Part shown: one piece after another, positions 11,058-27,292 of the stretch
How the letters are laid out: each line of letters starts with the position of its first letter
Position numbering within the stretch: position 1 is the stretch's first letter
Source: Deltaproteobacteria bacterium
GTDB taxonomy: Bacteria > Desulfobacterota > RBG-13-43-22
Direction of reading: 5' to 3'
Assembly (NCBI GenBank): GCA_016219225.1
Contig: JACRBX010000132.1
Span: 1 to 58,033, forward strand
Length of the DNA: 58,033 bases
Translations under genes and position numbers: made by a program
The notes under the pieces: generated by a model
What the model was told of the DNA's origin: nothing
The model's input: only the letters and a program-made list of their open reading frames with translations
The model's database searches: none

Positions 11058-12165
11058 GAGAAACCTGTTGTTGTTCATTCTGTCAGGGGCAGTTCTATTG
11101 GCCCCGGGATGGACCAATCCCATCCAGGCTCAGGAAAAATCAGTGATCACGGCAGGGGATATTTTTCCAAAAACAACTCTGAATGCCCCGGTTAACCCCA
11201 GGGATAAAACCTATTTGGGGATTCCGAAGAAGAAATTTTTTGCCGTCAAGGACATTCAGGCTGAGGTGATATTGGTAGAAATTATGAATGTTTATTGTGC
11301 CAGTTGCCAGAATATGGCTCCGGTTTATAATAAGCTTTTTGCCCGCCTTGAGGCCCGGCAGGAGATCAGAAAAAAGATTAAAATCGTAGCCTTTGGCGTG
11401 GGCAACAATGAAGAGGAAATTAAAATTTTTCGAGATCATTTCCAGGTGCCTTTTCCTATCGTTCCCGATCCTGACTATGACTTGCACAAGGCCATAGGGG
11501 GAGGCCCAACCCCCTTTTCGATTTTGGTTAGAAGAGGGGCAAAAGGGAAATCGGTTGTCGTGGCCTCGACGCACCTGGGGTTCACCGAAAAGGTTGAAGA
11601 GCTTTTTTCGGAATTGGAGCTGTTGCTGAAGACCAATCCGGAGGATATTAAAAAAAAAGGTGAAAGAACCGAGGCCAGGATATTAACGGCCAAGCCTCCC
11701 ATGACGGATGAGGAAATTCAAGCTAAAATCAAAGAAGCTTTTACCGAAGAAGGCAAGGCGTTAACCGGATTTGAAAAAGTTGATCTCCGAGGGGGAAGAG
11801 CCATCTATGCCGGAACCGTTAAAAAAGAAGGGCAGACCGGAAATCTTTTTGCTGCAGTGATCAGCCAACTCCCGACCTGCGACCTCTGTCATGACACCCA
11901 TTTTATCGTCACCTTTGAACCCAGCGGCAAGATTCAACAGTTTATACCTCTCCAATTAACCAAAACTGATAATGAGAACTGGACTGAAGCCGATATAGCC
12001 AGGATGCGCAAAAAGATCGTCGGCCGATTTATTTACCACCCTTTTTCTTTCAAGGCCAAGGTCGATGCCGTTTCCTCCGCTACCATTACCTCGGCTGCCA
12101 TCTTTAGAGGTTTGAACGAGGGGCAGGAAATTTTCAAGGAACTGAAAAAGAAGGGGCTGCTTTAG
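11050..12165 (+). CDS. Secreted thioredoxin-like / FMN-binding domain fusion protein
   Basis: 371 residues with a signal peptide (about 1-28). Residues about 35-195 form a thioredoxin/redoxin fold with a CxxC active site C83-A-S-C86 and cis-Pro segment (GGGPTPFSILV). Residues about 235-350 form an FMN-binding domain ending in VDAVSSATITSAAI, which fits the ApbE flavinylation motif with T345 as acceptor (Ser replaces the usual Gly). A CxxCH sequence (C277-DLC-H281) sits inside the flavin domain and could bind haem c or act as a thiol pair. It overlaps apbE by 8 bp, so the two are translationally coupled. A periplasmic electron-transfer protein linking flavin and thiol chemistry is inferred. 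Confidence 0.85.
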   Translation: MLKRNLLLFILSGAVLLAPGWTNPIQAQEKSVITAGDIFPKTTLNAPVNPRDKTYLGIPKKKFFAVKDIQAEVILVEIMNVYCASCQNMAPVYNKLFARLEARQEIRKKIKIVAFGVGNNEEEIKIFRDHFQVPFPIVPDPDYDLHKAIGGGPTPFSILVRRGAKGKSVVVASTHLGFTEKVEELFSELELLLKTNPEDIKKKGERTEARILTAKPPMTDEEIQAKIKEAFTEEGKALTGFEKVDLRGGRAIYAGTVKKEGQTGNLFAAVISQLPTCDLCHDTHFIVTFEPSGKIQQFIPLQLTKTDNENWTEADIARMRKKIVGRFIYHPFSFKAKVDAVSSATITSAAIFRGLNEGQEIFKELKKKGLL

Positions 12166-12230
12166 GCACTTATCGGCAGGAGGCAATGGGCAATAAGCTA
12201 TGGATAAAGAATAATGGAATTGTAAAAGTC

Positions 12231-12258
12231 GTCATTCCCGCGCAGGCGGGAATCCAGG
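12231..12258. repeat. Dispersed GTCATTCCCG...CGGGAATCCAG palindromic element
   Basis: ATTCCCGC-gcag-GCGGGAAT forms a hairpin at the end of the apbE unit. Related copies occur at 35159-35253, 44155-44188 and, truncated, 48272-48308. Confidence 0.6.
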
Positions 12259-12319
12259 TAACCACATAATCCATTAAAAATATTCGATTCCAGTTCCCGA
12301 TTAGGAAATTCGGGCCTCA

Positions 12320-12739
12320 TTAATTGCAGGCTGGCCGTTCTATCCCAACCTTTTTCCGGATAAAGTCGATGATATCCGTGGTATAGGTCCCCGGGCCGAA
12401 GATTTCGCTGATGCCGGCGGCTTTCAGATTCGGGATGTCTTCTTCCGGGATTACCCCCCCGCCAAGCACCAACACATCTTTTAAGCCTTTTTCTTTGACC
12501 AGTTCCATGACCCTGGGAAAGAGGTAATCATGGGCCCCGGAAAGGACGCTCATGGCAATGACATCCACGTCTTCCTGAACCGCGGTGGCCACGATCTGCT
12601 CCGGGGTTTGGCGCAGACCGGTATAAATGACCTCCATGCCGGCATCCCGCAAGGCATGGCAAATTACCTTGATCCCTCGATCATGACCATCCAGGCCGGG
12701 TTTGGCGGCCAGAACGCGTATTTTCCTTCCTGCAACCAT
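12320..12739 (-). CDS. Methylmalonyl-CoA mutase small subunit / cobalamin-binding domain
   Basis: A 139-residue B12-binding Rossmann-like domain with the DxHxxG signature ([14 protein letters not shown]), the SxL segment ([15 protein letters not shown]) and the GG segment ([14 protein letters not shown]). It carries the adenosylcobalamin of the mutase whose catalytic TIM barrel is the next gene upstream (12753), so the enzyme is of the split type. The ATG at 12739 has an AGGAGGT ribosome site; longer in-frame starts run into the neighbouring gene. It is the last gene of the minus-strand module starting at 18607. Confidence 0.93.
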
Positions 12740-12752
12740 TGAATAAGACCTC

Positions 12753-14429
12753 CTATAGGGTTGAGACCGCGGTATATTCGCCAAAAATAGACCGCAAGGT
12801 ATCGCAAATTTCTCCCAGGGTGGCATAAGCCCGAACGGCCTCTAAAATGGGAGGCATCAGGTTTTCCGAGCCTTCGGCTGATTTCTTCAGATCGGCCAAA
12901 CAGGATTCAACCTTCTGGCTGTCCCGTGACTGTTTCAGTTGGATAATCTTCCGGATTTGTTGTTCCCTGACGGCCGGATCGACTCGTAATAACCCGGATG
13001 GCGGCGGTTCTTTGACCTGAAACTTGTTGAGTCCAACCACGGTCCGTTCCCCGGTTTCCACGCCCCTCTGAAAGCGATAAGCGCTTTCCTGAATCTCTTT
13101 TTGAATAAACCCCTGTTCAATAGCCGCGGCCGCTCCCCCCATCTCATCGATCCGCCGGATATACTCCATGGCCTTTTCTTCGATAGTGGTGGTCAAATGC
13201 TCAAGATAATAAGAGCCGGCCAGGGGATCGATGGTATCAGTAACCCCGGTCTCATTGGCGATGATTTGCTGAGTCCGTAAGGCAATCTGGACCGCTTCCT
13301 CGGTCGGCAGGGACAGGGCCTCATCCATGGAATTGGTGTGCAAGGACTGGGTTCCTCCCAGGACCGCCGACAGGGCCTGAAAAGCCACCCGAACGATATT
13401 GTTTTTGGGCTGCTGGGCGGTCAAAGAACAGCCGGCCGTTTGGGTATGGAATCGAACCATCAGGGAACGGGGGTCTTTGGCCCCAAAGCGTTCCTTCATC
13501 AGTCGGGCCCAGAGTCGACGGGCGGCCCGGTACTTGGCAATTTCTTCCAGGAAATCCAAATGGGCGTTAAAAAAGAAGGACAAGCGAGGCCCGATCGTGT
13601 CCACGGAAAGTCCGGCCTTTTGAGCCGCTTCCACGTAGGCAATCCCGTTGGCCAGGGTAAAGGCCACTTCCTGGACGGCCGTGGACCCTGCTTCCCGGAT
13701 ATGGTAGCCGCTGATACTGATCGTATTCCATTTAGGGACCTCTTTGGAGCAAAATTCAAAGATATTGGTAATGATGCGCAAAGAAGGCTGGGGCGGAAAA
13801 ATATAAGTCCCCCTGGAAGAATATTCTTTCAGGATATCGTTTTGGATGGTCCCGTTCAACTCTTTGGAGGAAACGCCCTGTTTCTCCGCCACCCCGATAT
13901 ACATAGCCAGCAGGATAGCGGCCGGGGCATTAATGGTCATGGAGGTGCTGACTTTATCCAACGGGATCTCTGCAAAGAGTGTTTCCATATCCTGAAGGGA
14001 ATCGATGGCCACTCCGACCTTTCCCACCTCCCCCTGTGATAAGGGGTGATCGGAATCATATCCGATCTGGGTAGGCAGGTCAAAGGCTACGGAAAGACCG
14101 GTCTGACCTTGCTCCAACAGATATTTATAGCGGCGGTTGGATTCTTCGGCGCTGGCAAAACCGGCATATTGGCGCATGGTCCAGAACCGGCCCCGATACA
14201 TGGTGGGCTGAACCCCGCGGGTAAAAGGGTATTCTCCGGGGAACGAGAGGTCCTGGTCATAATCCAGACCGGAAACATCGGCCGGGGTATAGACCCGCTG
14301 GATCGGGATCTCCGAAATGGTGGAAAAGGCATTTTTTCTTTCCGGTGATTTGGTCAGTTTGGCCTCAATTTTCTCCTGCCAGTCGCTTTGTTCTTTTTTG
14401 AGATGGGCCGTTTTATCGGGATCAAACAT
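12753..14429 (-). CDS. Methylmalonyl-CoA mutase large (catalytic) subunit
   Basis: A 558-residue TIM-barrel mutase of the type lacking its own B12 domain. Family motifs are intact: [89 protein letters not shown]. The Tyr in TMYRGR and Arg in PSLRII correspond to substrate residues typical of methylmalonyl-CoA rather than isobutyryl-CoA mutases, by recollection of the family. It interconverts succinyl-CoA and (R)-methylmalonyl-CoA, reversibly linking propionate and the TCA pathway. The ATG at 14429 has a GGAG ribosome site; an upstream TTG at 14441 is less likely. Confidence 0.93.
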
Positions 14430-14494
14430 GATACTCTCCAAATATTATCTCGGTATAAGGTTTAAGGTAAAGGATAAGGTGAAAGGATTTAAGC

Positions 14495-14533
14495 CCCAAA
14501 CCTTGGACCTTGGACCTTGAACCTTGGACCTTT
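14495..14533. repeat. Short-word intergenic repeat (CCTTGGA/CCTTGAA)
   Basis: Four to five near-tandem copies of CCTTGGA/CCTTGAA lie between the carboxyltransferase and mutase genes. The same word family recurs at 16150-16180, 20630-20650, 34000-34030 and 49905-49931. Confidence 0.6.
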
Positions 14534-14535
14534 AT

Positions 14536-16089
14536 TTATAATGGTATGTTCCCGTGTCTCCTGGGGAGAGGGCGGACCTCGACCTTGGTTTTTAAAGACT
14601 CCAGGGCTCGAATCAATTTGGGCCGGGTGAATTCCGGCAGGATTATTTCATCAATATACCCCAGCTCGGCAGCTTTATAGGGGCTGGCAAAGGTCCGCCG
14701 ATAATCCTCAATCAATTCCTGGCGGGTTTTTTCCGGATCAGCGGCTTCTTTGAGCTGGTTGCGGAAGACGATAGGCACGGCCCCTTCCGGCCCCATGACC
14801 GCAATCTCGGCCATCGGATAGGCCAGGTTAATGTCGGCGCCGTGGTGTTTGCTGCCCATGACATCATAAGCCCCGCCATAGGCCTTGCGGGTAATGACCG
14901 TGACCTTAGGTACCCAGGCATCACAGTAAGCATAGATGATCTTGGCCCCGTGACGGATAATCCCCCCATGTTCCTGGGCCACACCGGGCAGGAAGCCGGG
15001 GACATCGACAAAGGTGACAATCGGGAGATTAAAACAATCGCAAAAGCGGACAAATCGGGCACACTTATCGGAGGCATTGATATCCAGACAACCGGCTAAA
15101 GACCGAGGCTGGTTGGCTACGATTCCTACCGGCATCCCGTTTAAGCGGGCGAAACCGACGATCATGTTGGTGGCGTATGATTTCTGGACTTCAAAAAAAT
15201 GATTGTCATCCACCACGGAGAGAATGATCTTTTTCATGTCATAGGGGGTGCGGGGGTTGTCCGGAATGACGGTCCTCAGATTCAGGTCTATGCGGTTGGG
15301 ATCGTCCTGGGGCTCTCTCTGGGGAGGTTTCTCATTACAGTTTTGAGGCAGGAAGGATAAGAGTTCCCTGATCATATCCAAAGCCTTTTTGTCGTCTTTG
15401 GCCGAGAAATGGGCTACCCCGCTGGTAGTGTTATGTCTGGTCGCTCCGCCTAAGGCCTCAGGTTCCACCTCTTCATGGGTGGTGGCCTTAATAACCTGGG
15501 GACCGGTAATAAACATATGGCTGGTCTTTTCCACCATGATGATAAAATCGGTTATGGCCGGCGAATAAACCGCCCCTCCGGCACAGGGACCCATGATGGC
15601 CGAGATTTGGGGAATGATTCCCGAGCACTGGACATTCCGCCGGAAAATATCTCCATAGCTTCCCAGACTGACGACGCCCTCCTGGATACGAGCCCCCCCG
15701 GAATCGTTGAGGCCGATAACCGGGGCCCCGTTTTTTAAGGCCAGGTCCATGATCTTACAGACCTTTTCTCCAAAAGGGCCGCTCAGACTGCCGCCAAAGA
15801 CGGTGAAATCCTGGGAAAAGACATAAACTAACCGGCCGTTGATCCGACCGAATCCGGTGACCACCCCGTCGCCAAAAATTTTTTGTTTTTGCATGCCGAA
15901 ATCATAACAACGATGGACCACAAACTTATCGAGTTCCTCGAAGGTATCTTTATCTAAGAGATGTTCGATCCGCTCCCGGGCGGTTAATTTGCCTTTTTGA
16001 TGCTGACTGTCGATCTTATCCTGTCCGCCGCCCAATTCGGCCTGGGCATTCAGCGCTTCTAATTCCTTAATTCGGTCTTCGTTTGTCAT
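14536..16089 (-). CDS. Acyl-CoA carboxyltransferase (propionyl-CoA / methylmalonyl-CoA type)
   Basis: A 517-residue carboxyltransferase with both crotonase-fold halves. N-terminal: [56 protein letters not shown]-terminal: [55 protein letters not shown]. It moves CO2 between carboxybiotin and propionyl-CoA. Its biotin carrier is probably the small protein at 16398. No biotin carboxylase or membrane decarboxylase subunit lies here, so transcarboxylase, Na+-pumping decarboxylase and carboxylase roles all remain possible. It lies directly upstream of the mutase genes in one operon. Confidence 0.93.
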
Positions 16090-16397
16090 CCTTCACCTGT
16101 CTGAAGTAGTTAATATGAAATAAAGTTTCAAGATACAAGTTTCAAGTGAGAAAACCCTGAACCCTGTCCCTTGAACCTATTTTCATGATATAAGGTCCTC
16201 CCCTGGGCATAAGTGCTTACTATCTGATTAGTTTACTAAAATATTCACAATCTTTCGGAAAGATCAAATATTAACGCCGAAAAACAGAACATTAGTCGGG
16301 CTTTTTTAATCATTTTTAAGGGGGTGCCGGCTTTGCAGCCAGGAACAAAGTCAGCACCCGCAATCTGTTTATTAATCTGCTTGTCTGGTTTGGGCCT
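16090..16397. other. 308-bp spacer with dispersed repeat and hairpin
   Basis: No coding sequence is seen. It contains a copy of a composite dispersed repeat (16118-16188) immediately upstream of the carboxyltransferase gene, and a hairpin at about 16322-16361 (arms starting GGGTGCCGGCTTTG, closing CAAAGTCAGCACCC, two mismatches) downstream of the biotin carrier gene. Confidence 0.5.
16118..16188. repeat. Composite dispersed intergenic repeat, copy A
   Basis: It contains AATAAAGTTTCAAGATACAAG, then TTTCAAGTGAGAAAA, CCTTGAAC-type words and TATTTTCATG, in the same order as copy B at 20592-20669 upstream of aspS. A partial copy is at 44099-44137. Confidence 0.65.
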
Positions 16398-16610
16398 TTA
16401 TTCGATGATCATCAAGACCTGATCGGCCTCGACCGAATCCCCTTTGGCCACTTTGATCTCTTTTACCGTCCCTTCTCCGTCATTCAGGATCGGCATTTCC
16501 ATTTTCATAGCCTCAAGAATAGCCACCTCATCCTCATCATGAACCGAATCGCCTACATTCACTTTAATATCAATGACCTTCCCGGCCATAGGTGCCAATA
16601 CCGCTGCCAC
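16398..16610 (-). CDS. Biotin carboxyl carrier protein (biotinyl/lipoyl domain)
   Basis: A 70-residue stand-alone biotinyl domain with the biotinylation motif EAMKMEMP (target Lys of AMKM) and paired half-barrel repeats (VLAPMAGKVIDIKVNVGDSV; DGEGTVKEIKVAKGDSVEAD). It starts at GTG with an AGGAGG ribosome site. It would shuttle carboxybiotin to the carboxyltransferase encoded just downstream (14536). The lack of the long Ala/Pro-rich leader typical of decarboxylase carriers makes it a minimal carrier. Confidence 0.93.
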   Translation of the reverse strand: MAAVLAPMAGKVIDIKVNVGDSVHDEDEVAILEAMKMEMPILNDGEGTVKEIKVAKGDSVEADQVLMIIE

Positions 16611-16777
16611 AATAATTCCTCCTTTGGGTTTAATAAATTATTTCCGAAATAACAACTTGAAGTTTTTAATAATTCTAAGTTGTTTTGTCAAGTCTAATTA
16701 AAAATATGATCAAAAAAATGGTGGATCTATAAAAAGTCAATCAGCAACCCTAGTTCCGGCGGGGTCAAGCCTCGATA

Positions 16778-18607
16778 CTACAATTCTCCATTCTGGTCCA
16801 TTTTGGCCAGGTCCTCAAATTTGATATCGATCCCCAGAACCCCCAGGATTTCATCCCCCTCATTTCGGATCGTTCCGGAAACGGTAATGCACAAGGCCCC
16901 GGTGATTTTGGAGGTGTAAAAATCGGTAATATGGATCTTTCCGTCTTTAATGGGTTGGGTAAACCAGGAACGGTCTGAAAAGTCCTCATCCAACTTGAAA
17001 ATCTGGTATTTAGCCCGGTCAACGATGCGGGTAATATTTTTGGTGATTTTTTTCCCTTCCAGATTGGTGATGTAAATAAACTGGATAAAAGGATTGAGTT
17101 CGATAAAATTTTCCATGACCGGTTCCTGGATAACCGGGTTCATACTGCGAATTTCTTCCCGCTCCAGAATTTCTTCAACGATATGGAAGGCCAAATGATA
17201 GGCCTTTTGTTTGAGCTCATCAAATTCGGAGACAAAATATTCCGGCAGGTATTTCCGGCTGATCCGTTCCATTTCCTGGGCGGAGATGGAGGTAACCCGC
17301 CCCTCCTCATACTGTCTCATGACCCATTTGTAAATCTTAACCACCCCGGGATGATGTTTGTCTACGGCCCTTGGACCTTCGAGATTAAGGTGTTTGTTTA
17401 ACCAGTGGATGATACCGGCTGTCCCTGATTTATCGGTAATAATAATACTGATCGGCCGACCCAGGATTTTCTGGGTATCGAAGATATTATAGATTTCTTC
17501 ATTTTTGATTAAGCCGTCGGCATGGATCCCGGCGCTGGTGGCATTAAAATCCGTCCCCACGAAAGGGTAATTGGCCGGTATGACGTAATGGATTTCTTTC
17601 TCAAAATACTCAGCCATTTCGGTAATCGCCTTGGTATCAATGCCGTTATCCTGTCCCAGAAGGCTGATATATTCGATCAGCAGGCCTTCAACCGGGGTAT
17701 TGCCGGTCCTTTCTCCAAAGCCCAGCAGCGCCCCGTTTACAGCGGCACACCCGTAAAGCCAGGCCGTTGTGGCATTAATAAATCCCTTATGAAAATCATT
17801 GTGGCCATGCCATTCCAGGAGTCGTCCCGGCACCCCGGCGTCATCAATCATGGCCCGGATTAATTTAGCGACGCTGCGGGGCAGGGCCACCCCCGGATAA
17901 GTAACCCCATAGCCCATGGTGTCACAGAGACGAATTTTGATATCCACACCCGAGGCCTCTCTCAGTTTCATCAGTTCAATGGCCAGGGGAACGCAAAACC
18001 CGTAAATATCGGCTCTGGTAACGTCTTCCATGTGGCAGCGGGGGGTAATCCCCATGTCCAGAGCCTTCTGAACGATGGAAATATATTGTGAAAAGGCCTG
18101 GGGTCGGGTCATGTTCAATTTATAGAATATGTGGTAGTCGGAGACCGAGGTCAATATCCCTGTTTCTTTAAGTTCCATCTCCTTGACCAGATTTAAATCA
18201 TTGGGATGGGCGCGAATCCAACCGGTAATTTCCGGATAAGGATAACCCCTTTCCTGACACTTTCGGAGGGCCTCTTTATCCCTGTTGCTGTAAAGGAAAA
18301 ATTCAGTCTGCCGGATAACCCCGTAGGGGCCTCCCATCCGATGGAGAAAATCAAATATCTTGAGGATTTGCTCCAAGGTATAGGGAGGGCGAGCCTGCTG
18401 GCCGTCCCGAAAGGTGGTATCGGTGATCCATAATTCTTCGCTGGGATCAATGGGGAGGATTTTATGGTCGAAGTCGATGCGGCAGACCTGATCATAGGGG
18501 AAGATGTCCCGCTGCAGATTCGGATCACTGACATCCTTCAACTCATAGCGCCAGAACGGCGTGTGTTCATGGTCCAAGACTTTTTTGTTCGGGTTCCAGC
18601 GGGCCAT
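16778..18607 (-). CDS. HMGL-family (Re-citrate synthase / homocitrate synthase-like) protein with C-terminal Cache domain
   Basis: A 609-residue protein. Residues about 45-470 form a DRE-TIM metallolyase: WITDTTFRDGQQARPPYT at the metal/acyl site, GRLLEWHGHNDFHKG, NGALLGFGERTGNTPVEG, FNATSAGIHADGL and a Thr/Ser-rich exit loop. This resembles Re-type citrate synthases of anaerobes and homocitrate/isopropylmalate synthases. Residues about 495-605 are a Cache/PDC-like sensor module (FIQFIYITNLEGKKI, SDRSWFTQPIKDGKIHITDF, ILGVLGIDIKFEDLAKM). No signal peptide or membrane span is present, so the Cache part is cytoplasmic. The operon with BCCP, carboxyltransferase and mutase fits a propionate/TCA role. 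An ATG at 18607 with an AAGGA site is preferred over TTG at 18622. Confidence 0.8.
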   Translation of the reverse strand: MARWNPNKKVLDHEHTPFWRYELKDVSDPNLQRDIFPYDQVCRIDFDHKILPIDPSEELWITDTTFRDGQQARPPYTLEQILKIFDFLHRMGGPYGVIRQTEFFLYSNRDKEALRKCQERGYPYPEITGWIRAHPNDLNLVKEMELKETGILTSVSDYHIFYKLNMTRPQAFSQYISIVQKALDMGITPRCHMEDVTRADIYGFCVPLAIELMKLREASGVDIKIRLCDTMGYGVTYPGVALPRSVAKLIRAMIDDAGVPGRLLEWHGHNDFHKGFINATTAWLYGCAAVNGALLGFGERTGNTPVEGLLIEYISLLGQDNGIDTKAITEMAEYFEKEIHYVIPANYPFVGTDFNATSAGIHADGLIKNEEIYNIFDTQKILGRPISIIITDKSGTAGIIHWLNKHLNLEGPRAVDKHHPGVVKIYKWVMRQYEEGRVTSISAQEMERISRKYLPEYFVSEFDELKQKAYHLAFHIVEEILEREEIRSMNPVIQEPVMENFIELNPFIQFIYITNLEGKKITKNITRIVDRAKYQIFKLDEDFSDRSWFTQPIKDGKIHITDFYTSKITGALCITVSGTIRNEGDEILGVLGIDIKFEDLAKMDQNGEL

Positions 18608-18679
18608 ACTATTTCCTTCCAAACTTTTACTTTAAGGGTTAAAGAGTCTATGGATAAAGGTGTTATAAGTCGGGCCAAC

Positions 18680-18730
18680 AGTTCGGAGTTCGGAGTAATG
18701 AGTTTTGCTCCGAACTCCGAACTCCGAACT
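18680..18730. repeat. Short-word hairpin (AGTTCGG words)
   Basis: AGTTCGGAGTTCGGAG (18680-18695) and CTCCGAACTCCGAACT (18708-18723) are perfect 16-bp arms around a 12-base loop, with one more CCGAACT word after. It lies between aspS and the HMGL gene, both minus strand. Confidence 0.75.
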
Positions 18731-18788
18731 AATAATTAGCCTCTCGAATACTTGGACCCTGTAACCACCAGCGATATTCGATAGAGTT

Positions 18789-20570
18789 TTATTTTTTGAC
18801 ATCCAACCGCAACCCCAACTCATTCAACTGAATTCTGCTGACACCGGTCGGGGCGTTGGTCAAGGGACAGACCGCCTTTTGGGTCTTGGGAAAGGCGATC
18901 ACTTCCCGGAGCGAAGGGGCTCCGGTCATGAGCATGATCAAGCGGTCCAGCCCGAAGGCGATTCCGCCGTGGGGAGGGGCCCCCATTTCCAGGGCCTCCA
19001 ATAGAAAACCGAATTTTTCTTCGGCCTCTTCCTGCGAAATGTTAAGGACCTGGAAGACCTTTTCCTGCATTCCCCTTTGATGAATACGAATACTGCCCCC
19101 GCCGATCTCGTTTCCGTTCAGGACCAGGTCATAGGCCCGGGATCGGACCTTCCCCGGCTGGGACATCAGGAGCGGAAGGTCTTCCTCCAACGGTGCGGTA
19201 AAGGGGTGATGAACCGCTCCGTATCGTCCTTCTTCCGGCCGGTACTCCAGGAGGGGGAATTGATGGACCCAGGTAAATTCATATTGGTTTTTGGGCAGGT
19301 CTTGACGATTCCCCAAATGGAGACGGATCTTCCCCAGGACTTCATGGACTATGGAGGGGACGTCGGCCTGGAAAAGGATCAGGTCCCCTGGTTGGGCGTC
19401 CAGGGTCCGGTCAATGGTCTTCCGTTCTTCTTCTTTAAAGAACTTGGCCAACGGAGACTGCCAGCCTTCGGGAAGGATCTTGGCCCAGGCCAGGCCTTTG
19501 GCCCCCCATTCCTGCGCCAAACCGGTCAGGTCGTCTAATTCCTTACGGGAGAAGGCTGCACCTCCCGGCACCAGCAGGGCCTTGATACATCCCCCTTTTT
19601 GGGCCGCCTCGGCAAAAACTTTAACCTCGGATCGGCCGGCTGGTATGGTCAGATCCTTTATTTCCAGCCCAAAACGCAGGTCCGGCCGGTCGGTTCCGTA
19701 GCGGTTCATGGCTTCTTCATAGGTCAGGCGCCGGAAGGGAGAAGGGATTTCCATTCCAAGAATATGCTTGAACAATTTACAGATAAGTTCTTCAATTAAA
19801 ATAACAATATCATCCTCATGCATAAAGGATAATTCCATATCCAACTGGGTGAATTCGGGTTGGCGGTCGGCCCTCAAGTCTTCATCCCGGAAACAGCGGA
19901 CTACCTGGTAATAGCGATCAAAGCCGGCCACCATCAGGAGCTGTTTAAAAAGTTGAGGAGACTGGGGCAGGGCAAAGAATTTCCCCTGTTGGACCCGGCT
20001 GGGGACCAAATAATCCCGGGCTCCTTCCGGTGTACTTTTGGTCAGGAAAGGGGTTTCCACGTCTATGAACCCTTTTTGGTCCAGGAAATTTCGAATAAAC
20101 CGGATAGCCTGGTGACGGACAAAAAAGTTTTTTTGCAGGCTGGGACGGCGCAGGTCGAGATAACGGTAACGGAGGCGGACGGTCTCCGAGACTTCGGCCG
20201 TTTCTTCCAGGGTAAAGGGCGGGGTTTTGGAGGTATTGAGTAATTGATACTCATTGACCAGCACCTCAATTTCCCCGGTTTTCAGGTTGGGATTGGCCAT
20301 GCCTTCAGGCCTGGCCCGGACTTTTCCGTGGATGGTGATCACATATTCACTGCGCAGTTGATGGGCCTGTTGATGGGCCTGACTGTTGGTCTCCGGGTTG
20401 AAGACCACCTGAGTGATTCCGGCCCGGTCCCGAAGGTCGATAAAAATAAGTCCTCCGTGATCCCGGCGGGTGTCCACCCAGCCGGCTAAATGGACCATCC
20501 GTCCTATATCCTGGGCTGTCAGAGATCCGCAGTCGTGGGTCCGCTGCCCGATCGGTTTATTTTCAGTCAA
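18789..20570 (-). CDS. aspS: Aspartyl-tRNA synthetase
   Basis: A 593-residue bacterial-type class IIb synthetase. It has the anticodon-binding OB domain (about 1-110: [20 protein letters not shown]), class II motif 1 ([20 protein letters not shown]), motif 2 ([20 protein letters not shown]), the bacterial GAD insert (about 290-420) and motif 3 ([16 protein letters not shown]). It charges tRNA-Asp. Full length with no gaps. A composite dispersed repeat lies in its 5' region and a perfect short-word hairpin follows its stop. hisS lies upstream on the same strand. Confidence 0.97.
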
Positions 20571-20591
20571 TAGGTTCTCCTTAAGCCCGAA

Positions 20592-20669
20592 AATAAAGTT
20601 TCAAGATGCAAGAGGCATGTTTCAAGTAAGAAAAACCTTGGACCTTGAATCTATTTTCAGGTTTCGTAG
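20592..20669. repeat. Composite dispersed intergenic repeat, copy B
   Basis: AATAAAGTTTCAAGATGCAAG, a TTTCAAGTAAGAAAAA block, CCTTGGA/CCTTGAA words and CTATTTTCAGG follow the same order as copy A (16118-16188). It continues into GTTTCGTAGTGTCCCG and a small hairpin (TCCCGCT/AGCGGGA). Both copies lie just upstream of a minus-strand gene. Confidence 0.65.
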
Positions 20670-20753
20670 TGTCCCGCTCCAAGCGGGACATGAGGGTTTA
20701 ATAAGCTGATTAAGGATCGCTTCGCTTAACTATCTATCCCCTGGATTCTGAAT

Positions 20754-22055
20754 TCAGGAATTTTCCCCAGGTCCTTTTACCTTACACCAGTCGCCTTGAT
20801 TTTCTATGTATTTTCCCAAAAAATAATCCAGGAATTGGGGGATCGGAATTTCTTCCTGGCTCTGGGTATTCAGATTACGGATCAAAATTCGATCCTTATT
20901 CAACTCCTCCGTGCCCAGAATGGCGGCATAAGGGCTTTTGGCTTTATCGGCCCGCTTAAGTTGGCTCTTCAGACTTTTGTCCTCATATTCCATGAGGGCC
21001 GGGATTTCTTTTTTATAGAGGGTCCTTAAAAGACCAAAGGCCTTATCCCGAGCCTCTGCGCCCAAAGGGATCAGAAAAACAAAGGGTCGGTTGATCCATT
21101 CTTCCTGAGAAGTCAATAAAAGGGCGGCCCGTTCCAATCCGATAGCAAACCCGATTGCCGGCAGGTCGGGTCCGCCCATTTGCCGGATAAGGCCATCGTA
21201 ACGCCCCCCTCCGGCCACGGCATCCTGGGCGCCCAGGTGGCTGGCGCTGATCTCAAAGGTGGTCCGGCAATAATAATCCAAGCCGCGTACCAACCGGGGG
21301 TCCAGGTGGACCTGGACGGAAAGTCGTTCGATAAGTTCCTGGACCTGACTGAAATGCTTCTGACAATCGGGACAATTAAAATCTGTAACGGTCGGGGCCC
21401 CGCTCAAGACCTCCTGACACCGTTCCACCTTGCAGTCAAATACGCGCAGGGGATTGGATTCCATCCGCCGCCGGCAGTCCGGACAGAGAACTTCTTTTTG
21501 CCCTTCTAAAAAATCCTTCAAGGCTGCGCTGAAAGACGGTCGGCAAAGGGGGCAGCCTAAAGAGTTTATTTTCAAACGGGTCTCCTGAAGACCCATGCGG
21601 TCCAGGATTTTTATCAATAAATAAATAATCTCGGCATCGGCATAGGGGCTGGCGGTTCCGATATATTCGGCATTGATCTGATGGAACTGGCGAAACCGGC
21701 CTTTTTGCGGGCGTTCATGACGGAACATGGGACCGATGGAAAAAAGCTTATGGATTTGTTGCTGGCCCTGGAGATTATGTTCGATAAAGGCCCTGAGGAC
21801 CGAGGCCGTGGCCTCAGGCCGTAAGGTAATCGAATCCCCACTTCGGTCCGTTATCGTATACATTTCCTTTTCAACGATATCCGTATAGGACCCGATGGAC
21901 CGGATAAAAAGCTCTGTTTTTTCCAGTATGGGGGTCCTGATTTCCGAAAAGCCGAAGGTTTGGAAAACCCGGCGGGCCGTTTCTTCCATAAAGACCCATT
22001 TCTCCGATTCACCGGGGAGAATGTCTTTAAATCCTTTTAAAGCCTGAATACCCAT
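20754..22055 (-). CDS. hisS: Histidyl-tRNA synthetase
   Basis: A 433-residue class II synthetase with the HisRS-specific motifs: GFKDILPGESEKW at the N-terminus, motif 2 (FSIGPMFRHERPQKGRFRQF), HisA (RLVRGLDYYCRTTFEI), GGGRYDGLI and motif 3 (AIGFAIGLERAALLL). An anticodon-binding domain forms the last 100 residues. Length is normal. A four-Cys stretch (CPLCRPSF ... VLCPDCRRRM ... NCPDC) indicates a zinc-ribbon-like insertion. Confidence 0.97.
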   Translation of the reverse strand: MGIQALKGFKDILPGESEKWVFMEETARRVFQTFGFSEIRTPILEKTELFIRSIGSYTDIVEKEMYTITDRSGDSITLRPEATASVLRAFIEHNLQGQQQIHKLFSIGPMFRHERPQKGRFRQFHQINAEYIGTASPYADAEIIYLLIKILDRMGLQETRLKINSLGCPLCRPSFSAALKDFLEGQKEVLCPDCRRRMESNPLRVFDCKVERCQEVLSGAPTVTDFNCPDCQKHFSQVQELIERLSVQVHLDPRLVRGLDYYCRTTFEISASHLGAQDAVAGGGRYDGLIRQMGGPDLPAIGFAIGLERAALLLTSQEEWINRPFVFLIPLGAEARDKAFGLLRTLYKKEIPALMEYEDKSLKSQLKRADKAKSPYAAILGTEELNKDRILIRNLNTQSQEEIPIPQFLDYFLGKYIENQGDWCKVKGPGENS

Positions 22056-22240
22056 GGAGCCTCTTTTTCCAAGATCATAGACCGTATTAGAAATACCAAA
22101 CTTATATTTATACCAAAATTTTTCTCTTTTGTCCAGAATTTATTGATTTTTATGGAAAGTCAACCGATACAACTTGGCGGGATTTGGGGACTAAAACAAT
22201 TCTAAGACTCAGAAAACCTTTTTTCAGCGACTTTTTGGCC

Positions 22241-22304
22241 ACCAGCATCCGGTATCCGGTATCCAGCAACCAGTAACCAGTATCCAGTAACCAGCAACCA
22301 GCCT
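22241..22304. repeat. Short-word tandem repeat (CCAGTA/CCGGTATC words)
   Basis: About nine near-tandem copies of a CCAGCA/CCAGTA/CCGGTAT word run between the SDR and hisS genes, in one orientation only and so not hairpin-forming. The same word set, arranged as an inverted pair, appears at 39930-40022. Confidence 0.65.
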
Positions 22305-22305
22305 C

Positions 22306-23100
22306 CTAATGCATCTTGGCTCCTCCATCGACATTGATGGCCTGGCCGGAGATATTCTTGGCTTCCTCGGAGACTAGAAAGGCCACCAGGTTGGCGATAT
22401 CTTCCGGGTCCTGGGGACGGCGCAAAGGGGTGACGGATTTGACCCGGGCTTCGAAAATTTCCCGGGGAGTTTTATCCGCCAGGGTCGGAAAATTCTCTTT
22501 GAACCAAACGGCCATTTGTTCCCACATGGGCGTCCAGATATATCCCGGACAAACGGCATTGACCGTTATCTGGTAACGCCCCAGTTCCTTGGCCATAGAT
22601 TGGGTCAGACTGATGACACCGGATTTGGAGGCGCAATACCCGCCAATGAATTCTTCACCCTCTTTCCCGCCGATAGAGGATATATTTACGATCCGTCCCT
22701 TTTTTCGGGGGATCATCTCTTTGGCCGCTTCACGGGAACATAAGAAGGTCCCTTTGAGGTTTACCTTCATGGATTTTTCCCAGTCTTCCACCGTATGGTC
22801 GATAACCAACCCGGTAGCTCCCGTCCCGGCATTGTTAACCAGGATGTCGATCCGACCGAATTTTTTCAGGCTTTCCTGAACCATTTGTTGAACCTCTTTT
22901 TCGTTGCCGACGTCCATTGGCCATCCAAGACCCTGTCCACCTCGACTGAGGATTTCCTGGATTACGGCTTCCACGGCCTTTTCATTAAGATCCGCAGCCA
23001 CCACGGTTGCCCCTTCGTTGGAGAGACGTAAAGCAATGGCCCGGCCGATCCCGCTGGCCGCTCCTGTGATTATGGCTACCTGACCATCCAGATTATACAT
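22306..23100 (-). CDS. SDR-family NAD(P)-dependent oxidoreductase
   Basis: A 264-residue short-chain dehydrogenase of the FabG-like classical type. It has the nucleotide-binding TGAASGIG, NNAG, catalytic Ser in IVNISSIGG, the YxxxK pair in GGYCASKSG, and a C-terminal NVDGG. An acidic residue after strand 2 (VVAADLNEKAV) suggests NAD rather than NADP preference. The substrate is not deducible; acyl-CoA or ketone reduction is typical for such enzymes. It is upstream of hisS but separated by 250 bp with repeats. Confidence 0.88.
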   Translation of the reverse strand: MYNLDGQVAIITGAASGIGRAIALRLSNEGATVVAADLNEKAVEAVIQEILSRGGQGLGWPMDVGNEKEVQQMVQESLKKFGRIDILVNNAGTGATGLVIDHTVEDWEKSMKVNLKGTFLCSREAAKEMIPRKKGRIVNISSIGGKEGEEFIGGYCASKSGVISLTQSMAKELGRYQITVNAVCPGYIWTPMWEQMAVWFKENFPTLADKTPREIFEARVKSVTPLRRPQDPEDIANLVAFLVSEEAKNISGQAINVDGGAKMH

Positions 23101-24149: not shown

Positions 24150-25014
24150 AATTGGGTATTTATCCAAAGTGGCTGCAGACCTGACTGTTGTGATTTTAAA
24201 GGCCCTGGGAGGACGTCTTAAGGATTCCTTCAGCCTCAGTGAGAAAGAGAAGGCCCTGGAGAGATGTGTACAGGCCGGAACGATCGCTTTGCTGGCCAAA
24301 GCGACAACCGATAAACCGGAGGAAATACAACTTCTGGCCGATATTTTTGAGCGCTTCGCCGCTGATGAGGATGTGGGCAAGGAATTCAGGGATCTACTCA
24401 AGGGAAATCTGCCCGATGTGTCCGAATTGAAATATCTCTTTGAGCACGCAGGGTACGATCCGGAGACCTTGCCGGTTTTAAGTTTCGAAGAATCGATAAC
24501 GAGTTTTGAAGCCGCCTTCCTGGCCGCTGCTACTACTGAACCGGAATTGCAGGGCATTATTCAGACTAATCAACTATTAGAGCAGACCCAACTCCTGCGG
24601 GAGATGGCGGGCAGGATGGGACAGCTTGTGGAACTAATCCGGTTTGCTCAACCAGGGACCCTCATCATTCAACCAGGGAAGATTCTGGCTACCAGAGGAG
24701 GGAACCAATCCCAATACCTGCTCGATCAAGGATACCTCAGTGCCTTAGGTTCAGAAACCAATGAGGCTCTGTTCACCTACTGCCGGGTTCTCCGGGACGA
24801 TATTAGAGACTTACCGATGCGCGGACTCGATATCGAAGCCAGTGATCCGGGTAGCAAACAACAACGCATGGATCTGGCCCGGGTTTATATTGATTTGAAT
24901 ACAAAGGCCCTTATTTTGGTAAAAAAGAAGGATAAAAAAAAATCGAGCCACTTCTCCGGAAGAAGAACAGAAAACCCGGCCATTGAGTGCCCTGGAGGCT
25001 GCTATTCAAAATAA
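24136..25014 (+). CDS. NACHT/FGE protein 1, N-terminal part (frame broken at an A9 tract)
   Basis: 292 residues. About 1-260 are largely helical with no catalytic motif (SFEESITSFEAAFLAAATTE; LREMAGRMGQLVELI), a possible effector or death-fold-like adaptor. Residues about 225-270 (LRDLPMRGLDI ... RMDLARVYIDLNT) match the pre-NACHT linker of the neighbouring protein (LYVGLNT). After KKKDKKK the frame runs into nonsense. Reading one base later gives TSPEEEQKTRPLSALEAA and continues into the NACHT domain of the next entry, paralleling TKSLSALQAV in the second protein. This entry and the next are thus one gene (24136-27292, about 1050 residues) interrupted at 24934-24942. Confidence 0.7.
   Translation: MGPFEIGYLSKVAADLTVVILKALGGRLKDSFSLSEKEKALERCVQAGTIALLAKATTDKPEEIQLLADIFERFAADEDVGKEFRDLLKGNLPDVSELKYLFEHAGYDPETLPVLSFEESITSFEAAFLAAATTEPELQGIIQTNQLLEQTQLLREMAGRMGQLVELIRFAQPGTLIIQPGKILATRGGNQSQYLLDQGYLSALGSETNEALFTYCRVLRDDIRDLPMRGLDIEASDPGSKQQRMDLARVYIDLNTKALILVKKKDKKKSSHFSGRRTENPAIECPGGCYSK
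24934..24942 (+). other. A9 homopolymer at the frame break of NACHT protein 1
   Basis: Nine adenines after GAT. Removing one A joins the upstream frame to the NACHT frame with homologous sequence on both sides. Such tracts are classic sites of polymerase slippage, phase variation and sequencing error. Confidence 0.75.
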
Positions 25015-27292
25015 ACAGATGGTGCTGCTTGGGGACCCCGGCTCCGGCAAAACCACCTTTATCAACCATCTTGCTTTATGCTTAGCGGCCCATCGCCTGG
25101 AACCTCAAAGCGATTGGTTGGCCCGTCTTTCCATTTGGCCGGATACAGAGGCCGACCTTATCCCTGTTCTGGTGACTCTACGAGATTTTGCCCAATGGAG
25201 TCGAACCTGCGATACGACGGCCGAGCCCTGTCACCTGTGGAACTTCATTGTTAACCGCCTGGAAGCCCAGAACCTAAAATCTGTGGCGGCTCCCCTCGAA
25301 CGGGTTCTTGAGGAGGGTCGTGTTATTGTTTTGCTCGATGGTCTGGATGAAATCCCGGATAAAGCCAGAAGCGCTTTTGTTCGGGAGGCCATACGCGCCT
25401 TTGCCAAACGCTATCCCGAGACACGCTTGATTGTCACTTGTCGGGTCCTTTCGTATCAGCATGAAGGTTATAAGCTAAATGAGTTTCCGTATCTTGAGTT
25501 GGCGGCCTTTGATGAAGACATGATAAGCCGATTTATTAAGGCCTGGTACACAGAATTGGTCCATCTTGGCACGCTTAAAACCGACCAGGCCGAAACATTA
25601 AAAAGAGGACTGGAAGATTCAATGAGGCGGCCGGATATCCGTGAACTGGCTTCCAATCCCCTTTTGATTACCGTTATGGCCCTGGTGAATACCCACAAGG
25701 GCCGACTCCCTGATGCCAGGGCCAAGCTTTACGAAGAAGCCGTCGATATATTGCTTTGGCGCTGGGACCAGAACAAGGCTATCGGAGGAGAGAAGTCGTT
25801 ACCACGTCTAAGTGAGCTTCTTTGGGAGGCCGGACGAACGGATGCAGACCTCAGAAGGGTGCTCTGGCATCTGGCCTTCCTGGCCCAGGAAACAGGCGGT
25901 GCCAAAAAAGGAGATTCCCGGGCGGACATACAGGAGTGGCATTTGCAAAAGGCCCTGGCAGAGCTTCATCCGACTAAAAGTTTGGATTGGTCTCAGCTAA
26001 TGATTGACGCCATCAAGCTGAGGTCAGGGCTGCTGCTGGAACGAGAGCCTGGAGTATATAGTTTCCCACACCGCACTTTTCAGGAGTATCTCGCAGCATC
26101 CCATCTTTCCATACAAACCGATTTTGCCAAGAAGGCGGCCGGGCTGGCCGGAGAGGGGGCCCTTTGGCGCGATGTCATCCTTCTCGCGGCCGGACGGTTG
26201 TTTTATGTCAATGGGGAACTTGAAAAATCCATTGTGCTTTTGAGTGAGTTATCTCCGAAGGAATTGAAGGATGAAGATGTCTCGTGGTACAAAGCCTGGC
26301 TTGCCGGAGACATCATCCTGGAGATTGGTGTCAACCGGGTTGAGCAGATGGAAATGGGCGTGGAATTGAGAGATCGAATCCGAGGGAGATTGGTCCAGAT
26401 ATTGAGCTTGGGTCGGTTGGCTGCCAGAGAAAGGGTTTCTGCGGGGGATACACTGGCCAAGTTAGGGGACCCGCGGTTTCGGACCGATGCCTGGTATTTG
26501 CCTGATGAGCCTCTACTGGGATTTGTAGAGATCCCTAATGAAGTTTTTCTTCCTGCCTATTATATTGCCAGGTATCCTGTGACCATGGCCCAATATGAGA
26601 TGTTTGTTGAGGATGGCGGGTATAGCCAAGATCGATACTGGAAGGAGGCAGAGAAGGCTGAAGTGTGGAGGAGTGGTAAGATTAAGGAAACAAGGGAGAC
26701 CGATTTTCGTGAGAGACCTCATAATTATGGTGTACCTTTCAATCTTCCTAATCATCCCATCGTAGGGGTCACCTGGTATGAAGCCCTTGCATACTGCCGA
26801 TGGCTCACGGAGCAGTTGCAAAACTGGACAGCCACGCCGAAGCTAATAGCAAAGCGGATACAGGAGGAACAATGGGAAATACGCCTTCCAACGGAGGCCG
26901 AGTGGGAGAAAGCTGCCCGAGGACCGCAAGGTCGCATCTACCCCTGGGGTGACCAAGCTGATCCGAATTTGGCGAATTCTTATGACGCGGGGATTGGTTC
27001 AACCAGTGCCGTGGGTTGTTTTCCTTGTGATGGAAGACCTTATGGCTGTATGGATTTGGCTGGGAATATTTCGGAGTGGTGCCTGAATAGCCCATCAGGA
27101 GATGAGTCCCGGGTGCTGCGCGGGGGGGCGTTCAACGAGAACCTCCGTACCGCGTACCGTAACAGGCTTAATCCCGTCAGCAGGGGTTACAATTTTGGGT
27201 TTCGTGTTGTTCTGGCTCCACTATGGTTTCGGTATGGAAATACCGTGGGATTGCGCAAGGCGGTTTTTGGAAGGGGAGTGTTCAAAAGATAA
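24983..27292 (+). CDS. NACHT/FGE protein 1: NACHT NTPase with C-terminal FGE/C-type-lectin-fold domain
   Basis: NACHT module: Walker A GDPGSGKTTF, Walker B VIVLLDGLDEIP, sensor-like RLIVTCRVLSY, NPLLITVMALVNTHKGRLPDA and winged-helix YSFPHRTFQEYLAAS. A helical linker ends in the AGDTLAKLGDPRF motif common in STAND-FGE proteins. The FGE-like domain (about 510-769) has NHPIVGVTWYEALAYCRWL, IRLPTEAEWEKAARG, YPWGDQ and CMDLAGNISEW, ending VLRGGAFNENLRTAYRN ... FGFRVVLAP. It lacks the catalytic Cys pair of true formylglycine-generating enzymes, so a binding role is inferred. About 22 codons present in protein 2 (the GSFLIGSDK loop) are missing near 26536. The nominal TTG start is an artefact of the frame break. 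The gene ends 18 bp before the next. Confidence 0.85.
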   Translation: MSALEAAIQNKQMVLLGDPGSGKTTFINHLALCLAAHRLEPQSDWLARLSIWPDTEADLIPVLVTLRDFAQWSRTCDTTAEPCHLWNFIVNRLEAQNLKSVAAPLERVLEEGRVIVLLDGLDEIPDKARSAFVREAIRAFAKRYPETRLIVTCRVLSYQHEGYKLNEFPYLELAAFDEDMISRFIKAWYTELVHLGTLKTDQAETLKRGLEDSMRRPDIRELASNPLLITVMALVNTHKGRLPDARAKLYEEAVDILLWRWDQNKAIGGEKSLPRLSELLWEAGRTDADLRRVLWHLAFLAQETGGAKKGDSRADIQEWHLQKALAELHPTKSLDWSQLMIDAIKLRSGLLLEREPGVYSFPHRTFQEYLAASHLSIQTDFAKKAAGLAGEGALWRDVILLAAGRLFYVNGELEKSIVLLSELSPKELKDEDVSWYKAWLAGDIILEIGVNRVEQMEMGVELRDRIRGRLVQILSLGRLAARERVSAGDTLAKLGDPRFRTDAWYLPDEPLLGFVEIPNEVFLPAYYIARYPVTMAQYEMFVEDGGYSQDRYWKEAEKAEVWRSGKIKETRETDFRERPHNYGVPFNLPNHPIVGVTWYEALAYCRWLTEQLQNWTATPKLIAKRIQEEQWEIRLPTEAEWEKAARGPQGRIYPWGDQADPNLANSYDAGIGSTSAVGCFPCDGRPYGCMDLAGNISEWCLNSPSGDESRVLRGGAFNENLRTAYRNRLNPVSRGYNFGFRVVLAPLWFRYGNTVGLRKAVFGRGVFKR

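Follow-up and report, generated by a model that had tools for sequence, protein, structure and literature searches.

A Re-citrate-synthase-like protein of Desulfobacterota with a cytoplasmic Cache domain as a putative C-terminal regulatory domain

Introduction

Prokaryotes sense small molecules outside the cell mainly through Cache domains, which normally belong to chemotaxis receptors. Re-citrate synthases, frequently mis-annotated, provide the way into citrate for many strict anaerobes. In a 58,033-nucleotide stretch of DNA from a Deltaproteobacteria bacterium (hereafter the window), a single gene appeared to join the two. A reading of the letters alone, here called the sequence-only reading, had described its product as a Re-citrate-synthase-like enzyme with a C-terminal Cache domain, encoded in a propionate module. 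The locus thereby raises the question of whether the Cache domain is genuine, what the enzyme makes, and what a sensor domain might do on an enzyme of central metabolism.

Results

The gene and its product

The open reading frame was confirmed at its position on the minus strand, and the motifs that had been quoted from it were found in the translation. The features of the gene and its surroundings are listed in Table 1. No hydrophobic segment was detected in the 609-aa protein; the highest 19-residue Kyte-Doolittle mean was 1.14, and the Cache domain is therefore attached without a membrane segment, as had been proposed. Conservation was assessed in alignment A1, which consists of the window sequence and 74 of the best 80 loci of the genome collection (75 rows); L026, L031, L046, L063, L077 and L080 were left out because of a stop in the translation, partial length or lack of the Cache domain. 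In this alignment, residues 461-490, covering the linker, had a mean majority fraction of 0.50 versus 0.75 in the barrel. The full-length AlphaFold2 model reached a pTM of only 0.73, which leaves the packing of the barrel against the Cache domain unsure. A search of positions 12000-22500 for RNA elements gave no Rfam match at gathering thresholds.

Table 1. Positions of the Cache-bearing synthase gene, its parts and its neighbours in the window.
Feature	Position	Strand	Basis or remark
Re-citrate-synthase-like protein with C-terminal Cache domain, 609 aa	16778..18607	-	ATG at 18607; stop codon 16778-16780
Shine-Dalgarno-like GGAAGG, 7 bases before ATG	18615..18620	-	Sequence itself
DRE-TIM barrel (HMGL-like), aa 59-340	17588..18433	-	Pfam PF00682; RDGQQ (67-71), WHGHND (266-271)
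Post-barrel subdomain of Claisen-condensation DRE-TIM enzymes, aa 341-460	17228..17587	-	Weak HCS_D2 match; structure match 6ktq
Linker helix, aa 461-488, less conserved	17144..17227	-	AlphaFold2 helix 461-481
Cache (PDC) domain, aa 489-609	16781..17143	-	PF22673; model pLDDT 92.7; KinD, Tlp3, YkuI matches
Codon R546, equivalent to PctA R126 (carboxylate-binding) and KinD R131	16970..16972	-	R in 70/75 rows; alignment
Codon W548, equivalent to PctA W128	16964..16966	-	75/75 rows; alignment
Codon S566, at PctA D146 position; Ser also in KinD	16910..16912	-	75/75 rows; alignment
Codon D594, equivalent to PctA D173	16826..16828	-	75/75 rows; alignment
aspS (aspartyl-tRNA synthetase with GAD domain)	18789..20570	-	Pfam; commonest conserved neighbour
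hisS (histidyl-tRNA synthetase)	20754..22055	-	Pfam
Biotin carboxyl carrier protein	16398..16610	-	PF00364 E 3e-19; window context, outside conserved system
Methylmalonyl-CoA/propionyl-CoA carboxyltransferase subunit	14536..16089	-	TIGR01117 1.5e-238, below cut-off; window context
Methylmalonyl-CoA mutase N-terminal subunit	12753..14441	-	TIGR00641 over cut-off; window context
Methylmalonyl-CoA mutase B12-binding subunit	12320..12826	-	TIGR00640 over cut-off; window context

A genuine Cache domain

The Cache domain on this DRE-TIM synthase is genuine. Residues 496-601 matched the Pfam family MCP-like_PDC_1 (PF22673) with an E-value of 4.4e-15 and a score of 56.5 bits, the cut-off being 27; a further hit, to dCache_1 (PF02743; E 9e-9), scored 35.6 and stayed below its cut-off of 45. 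Modelled alone by AlphaFold2, the last 121 residues adopted a Cache fold, with the long N-terminal helix and the PAS-like sheet, for which KinD was the closest solved structure (E 1.4e-7, Z 14.2, rmsd 2.9 over 110 residues), followed by Tlp3 (Z 11.4) and YkuI (Z 10.5). When a profile of the 75 rows was compared with solved sequences, Tlp3 (E 4e-11), KinD (2e-10), PctA (4e-7) and YkuI (6e-4) were found. The Cache/PDC reading of the C-terminal segment was in this way borne out by profile, solved sequences and predicted fold for residues 489-605.

A LeuA-dimer fold, or homologues in which the segment aligned with a known allosteric domain, would have spoken against that reading. A LeuA-dimer or a RAM domain (the C-terminal regulatory domain of the Sulfolobus homocitrate synthase) was considered and rejected, as neither had a Pfam or solved-sequence match and the fold search returned Cache domains. 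The LeuA-dimer family PF08502 is absent here and present at the C-terminus of the LeuA and CimA of the same genome, and the Cache segment is kept as such in the homologues. These two paralogues also agree with the proposal that the segment takes the position of the allosteric LeuA-dimer domain of related synthases. The one usual Cache feature lacking is an extracytoplasmic location between membrane helices, which is typical of most families and not strict: that Cache domains are normally extracytoplasmic was rightly remarked, though YkuI_C, Diacid_rec and the stand-alone dCache_1AM are intracellular precedents.

A probable citrate synthase

The sequence-only reading's assignment of the enzyme to the DRE-TIM metallolyases agrees with the Pfam match to HMGL-like PF00682 at residues 61-333 (E 4.4e-31), with the match of residues 56-459 to the catalytic domain of the Sulfolobus homocitrate synthase (6ktq, Z 33.8), and with the R-D/E-x-x-Q and HxHN signatures on the barrel, by which DRE-TIM enzymes of Claisen condensation are recognised. 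RDGQQ was present in 81/81 Cache-bearing and 11/11 Cache-less rows, WHGHNDF in 80 of the 81 Cache-bearing rows and WHGHND in all 11 Cache-less ones; neither motif occurred in any of the four paralogues of the same genome. Two of these paralogues are LeuA and CimA, separate genes that score over their cut-offs. The other two are HMGL-like synthases of about 440 aa that remained below all NCBIfam cut-offs and so stay unassigned (L083 and L085, G000:C58), one of which adjoins an ABC transporter of the branched-chain amino-acid type.

No ordinary citrate synthase (PF00285) was found in the genome of the window; the control search was positive in 13 of 14 genomes. Among 148 genomes of the phylum, 11 had both the homologue and PF00285, 64 the homologue only, 67 PF00285 only and 6 neither (Fisher p 4.6e-23), and when only full-length PF00285 was counted the numbers were 9, 66, 60 and 13 (p 1.1e-18), although both p-values overstate independence because the genomes are related. 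The gene thus stands in place of Si-citrate synthase in its own genome, with 11 exceptions among the 75 homologue-bearing genomes, and among 23 additional genomes that carry the gene, 18 had no PF00285. The homologue occurred together with a full-length PF00285 protein, which may be a true citrate synthase or a methylcitrate synthase, in nine genomes (G004, G017, G041, G072, G089, G118, G122, G139 and G141). Downstream in the pathway, the genome of the window encodes an NADP-isocitrate dehydrogenase over the cut-off; aconitase was seen only as fragments at two contig ends, below the cut-off. The Re-citrate-synthase-like identity that had been proposed is supported by the missing PF00285, by the mutual exclusion and by isocitrate dehydrogenase and aconitase-family neighbours of homologues in several lineages, on the 2-oxoglutarate route, and because these three lines come together we infer that the 609-aa protein probably makes citrate, Re-citrate synthase being its best function. 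One report names Re-citrate synthase as the enzyme used by Thermodesulfobacteriota, Syntrophus and Desulfovibrio vulgaris among them (PMC12016533).

Spread of the fusion

A homologue (E <= 1e-60) was present in 75 of the 148 sampled genomes of the phylum. In 72 of these 75 the homologue runs through the Cache domain in a single reading frame; two others end at residue 458, and the last is truncated at the edge of its contig. The fusion is therefore not an assembly artefact, and the counts answer the sequence-only reading's call for its distribution in Desulfobacterota. In Bacillota, the phylum of locus L080, 32 of the 299 sampled genomes had a homologue, with 37 matches, all of them Cache-less and ending by residue 471. 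Cache-less homologues thus stop at the end of the post-barrel subdomain, and since the Cache domain is missing from the Bacillota relatives, it is dispensable for catalysis. Outside the phylum, the fusion was found in about ten others. The best 80 loci of the genome collection included Cache-bearing homologues from records named Thermodesulfobacteriota/Deltaproteobacteria, Nitrospirae, Spirochaetes, Omnitrophota, Elusimicrobia, Lentisphaerae, Fibrobacteres, Armatimonadetes, Termititenax, Erginobacter and UBP15; some of the names may be wrong, as most are metagenome bins. Homologues were picked by likeness to the whole query, so that conservation counts are biased towards Cache-bearing rows; the counts from the 148-genome and the 299-genome samples are the less biased ones for the Cache domain.

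A quick tree of 96 rows was made with 11 Cache-less rows, to which nine Bacillota genomes out of the 32 contributed a single row each and the phylum of the window two; L099, at a contig end, was excluded. At least four changes between presence and absence of the Cache domain were needed on this tree, of which well-supported branches force only two, and gain and loss of the domain are not separable because the root lies on very long branches. The two Cache-less homologues ending at residue 458 were those of genomes G013 and G031. The former (L097) stands alone in the tree, and the latter (L098) groups with sequences of Bacillota, a placement suggestive of horizontal transfer. No separate Cache gene was seen beside Cache-less homologues in the stretches fetched, most of which had little flank. 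No plasmid copy covered 80% of the query; the nearest plasmid proteins, a related group, were those of Deinococcus (NZ_CP031163.1 and NZ_CP097152.1), annotated 'pyruvate carboxyltransferase', with 39-40% identity to residues 23-450 only.

Genomic neighbours

Neighbours were counted at 81 loci including the window, and distances at the 74 that could be anchored (7 of the 80 loci could not). Upstream on the same strand, aspS was found at 34 of the 74 anchored loci, within 300 bp at 27 of them, and hisS was near the gene at 25. The sequence-only reading had stressed a propionate module instead. The module is real in the window, where the biotin carboxyl carrier protein, the carboxyltransferase and both mutase subunits are encoded, but it is rare elsewhere: counting the window, 5 of the 81 loci had methylmalonyl-CoA mutase near the gene and 4 had the carboxyltransferase. 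The propionate setting is thus local; a propionate-specific role was rejected on these counts, and a propionate operon as the physiological setting is not supported, hisS-aspS and, in several lineages, isocitrate dehydrogenase and aconitase-family genes being commoner.

At L028, L029, L033 and L035 a large subunit of the aconitase/isopropylmalate-dehydratase family lies 3-5 bp downstream of the gene (overlapping by 14 bases in L029), with an isocitrate dehydrogenase about 1.76 kb downstream. Isocitrate dehydrogenase was also near the gene in Desulfovibrio L055 and in L043, L064 and L066, aconitase-superfamily members in L055, L066 and L070, and an aconitate hydratase over the cut-off in L061 (Omnitrophota) and L064 (Elusimicrobia). 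Such neighbours, which in L029, L033 and L066 were assigned by clustering only, therefore occur in Syntrophorhabdales, Desulfovibrio, Omnitrophota and Elusimicrobia, and together they point to 2-oxoglutarate and glutamate supply. For the hydratases of L055 and L070 the best match was NF008503 'hydratase', and in L028 and L035 the large subunits passed subfamily models only, so that these matches do not prove the substrates.

Elsewhere in the window, positions 24983-27292 on the plus strand encode a protein that joins an NACHT NTPase with an FGE-sulfatase-like domain, FGE being the formylglycine-generating enzyme. Its architecture is of the STAND type and may have a link to defence.

The Cache pocket

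Alignment with the amino-acid sensor PctA placed R546 at R126, W548 at W128, F549 at Y129, Y564 at Y144, S566 at D146 and D594 at D173. Beyond the invariant positions of Table 1, F549 was kept in 74 of the 75 rows and Y564 in 64 (F in 9), and W548, S566 and D594 were still invariant in 40/40 rows after thinning to less than 70% identity. The seven PctA-derived positions had a mean entropy of 0.63 versus 1.72 for the whole Cache domain (p 3e-4). The dCache_1AA amino-acid motif (PctA Y121, R126, W128, Y129, Y144, D146 and D173) is not kept in full: D146 was found in 0/75 rows, where Ser stands instead, and the Y121 position held E, K, S and others, with Y in 10 rows. In the alignment with KinD, R131 fell on R546 and YSSRITG under YTSKITG (564-570), and an Ala was at D594.

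Two studies describe R126 as binding the ligand carboxylate, Y129 as structural, and the roles of W128, Y144 and D173 in the pocket (PMC10104139, PMC11245519). KinD binds pyruvate, and a mutant with Ala for Arg binds acetate, according to PMC3831638; the mutated residue is numbered 95 there and 131 in PDB titles, presumably for one and the same arginine. Neither pocket is a full match, since KinD is without an equivalent of D594 and PctA has Asp where S566 is found. The Cache pocket is kept and sits between those of the amino-acid and pyruvate sensors, and a small carboxylate is most likely its putative ligand.

The Cache profile had one further match in the genome of the window, the C-terminus (E 7.6e-8) of a 443-aa EAL protein of YkuI-like layout (L086, G000:C243:12495-12947, minus strand). 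This protein keeps the Y-x-S and the final Asp, and has Lys and Tyr instead of Arg and Trp.

Discussion

Known ligand-pocket positions rank with the most conserved ones in the Cache domain. We infer from this that the domain acts allosterically in the cytoplasm and takes a small carboxylate, and it seems to us rather probable that the protein is a Re-type citrate synthase with the Cache domain as its C-terminal regulatory domain. The barrel would condense acetyl-CoA and oxaloacetate to citrate. A small carboxylate would be held by R546 together with the polar pocket residues Y564, S566 and D594, and the resulting change of conformation would pass from the Cache domain through the linker helix to the activity of the barrel. 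Such ligand-gated allostery, suggested by analogy, would be placed like the LeuA-dimer domain through which leucine acts on isopropylmalate synthase. Pocket residues favour a carboxylate-type ligand, and the likeliest candidates would be small acids at the citrate/2-oxoglutarate node, such as pyruvate or other acids of the 2-oxo or 2-hydroxy type. For the wider proposal the chances appear evenly balanced: that a Cache sensor was taken into the cytoplasm as an allosteric domain, in roughly half of the Desulfobacterota genomes sampled and about ten further phyla, and that direct binding of a small carboxylate there sets carbon entry to citrate, 2-oxoglutarate and glutamate.

The chief rival is that the Cache domain is a structural module for oligomerisation or stability, without ligand, on a Re-citrate synthase that is not regulated through it. 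We regard this as unlikely, even though the Cache-less homologues of Bacillota and of two genomes of the phylum evidently work and PAS and Cache domains are described in PMC8694187 as also serving for dimerisation: a structural role would not obviously be expected to keep R546, S566 and D594, nor to place the ligand-pocket positions among the most conserved, thinned or not. An equally doubtful variant keeps the regulation and has the domain bind an alpha-amino acid, most simply glutamate, as end-product feedback like that of leucine on isopropylmalate synthase. It would account for the retention of R126, W128, Y129 (as Phe), Y144 and D173 of the PctA motif, and at loci next to isocitrate dehydrogenase and aconitase-family genes this branch would be expected to end in 2-oxoglutarate or glutamate. 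The motif is nevertheless incomplete, because Y121 is mostly lost and D146 is replaced by an invariant serine that is shared with the pyruvate sensor KinD, and this serine makes glutamate the less favoured ligand.

That the enzyme is instead a homocitrate synthase, for the nitrogenase cofactor or another pathway, is highly improbable. Its best solved matches are indeed homocitrate synthases and its top NCBIfam match is nifV (TIGR02660), and the genome has nifD and no clear nifV, no paralogue being above the nifV cut-off. Yet the score of 139.9 is far from that cut-off (462.9) and is exceeded by those of L083 (243.3) and L085 (235.8), one of which may serve as nifV since nifD is present without a clear one. 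A nitrogenase role was rejected for lack of correlation with nifD in the 148 genomes (22 of 75 with the gene, 21 of 73 without; p 1.0), and homocitrate synthesis would leave the exclusion with ordinary citrate synthase unexplained. The Re-citrate synthase with a regulatory Cache domain is the reading favoured here.

If this reading is true, the DRE-TIM synthase superfamily would gain a further type of C-terminal regulator beside LeuA-dimer and RAM, and Cache sensing would extend from receptors to metabolic enzymes, with a soluble Cache protein that offers an enzymatic read-out. Citrate synthesis in many anaerobes may then be switched by direct sensing of small acids. In genomes, RDGQQ, WHGHND and the Cache domain together form a sequence mark that separates these genes from LeuA and NifV. 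Enzyme and domain are each known; within the open-licence PMC literature, their combination and compartment were not found in print, and no report there joined a Cache domain to Re-citrate synthase, isopropylmalate synthase or an allosteric citrate synthase. Nor was a description of Re-citrate synthase regulation found in the small part of the literature that was covered. Pfam and similar databases may already include the Cache/DRE-TIM architecture without comment.

Among known systems, the Re-citrate synthases of Syntrophus aciditrophicus and Clostridium kluyveri, compared by description only, are likewise DRE-TIM synthases of anaerobes without Si-citrate synthase; the present protein differs from this type in its C-terminal Cache domain, which the Bacillota homologues examined do not have. 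LeuA and the Sulfolobus homocitrate synthase share the barrel, the post-barrel subdomain and an extra C-terminal domain in the equivalent place, but theirs is a LeuA-dimer (PF08502) or RAM domain. The membrane-distal Cache domain of KinD from Bacillus subtilis is the closest solved fold and shares the Arg and the Y-x-S-[KR]-I-T-G stretch; KinD, however, is an extracytoplasmic histidine-kinase sensor without an equivalent of D594. The dCache_1AA sensors PctA and Tlp3 have the pocket Arg, Trp, aromatic residue, Tyr and Asp at aligned positions, whereas Y121 and D146 are not kept here and the domain is a single, cytoplasmic Cache instead of a double one. Upadhyay et al. name two small Cache families as principally intracellular, YkuI_C and Diacid_rec, and describe Cache outputs as all signalling except for SMP_2 (PMC4822843); the intracellular stand-alone dCache_1AM is called a rare case of repurposing in PMC10104139. 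YkuI (EAL with YkuI_C) and the stand-alone actinobacterial dCache_1AM are thus alike in being intracellular Cache proteins, but they are tied to c-di-GMP or transcription signalling, whereas the Cache domain described here is carried by an enzyme of central metabolism.
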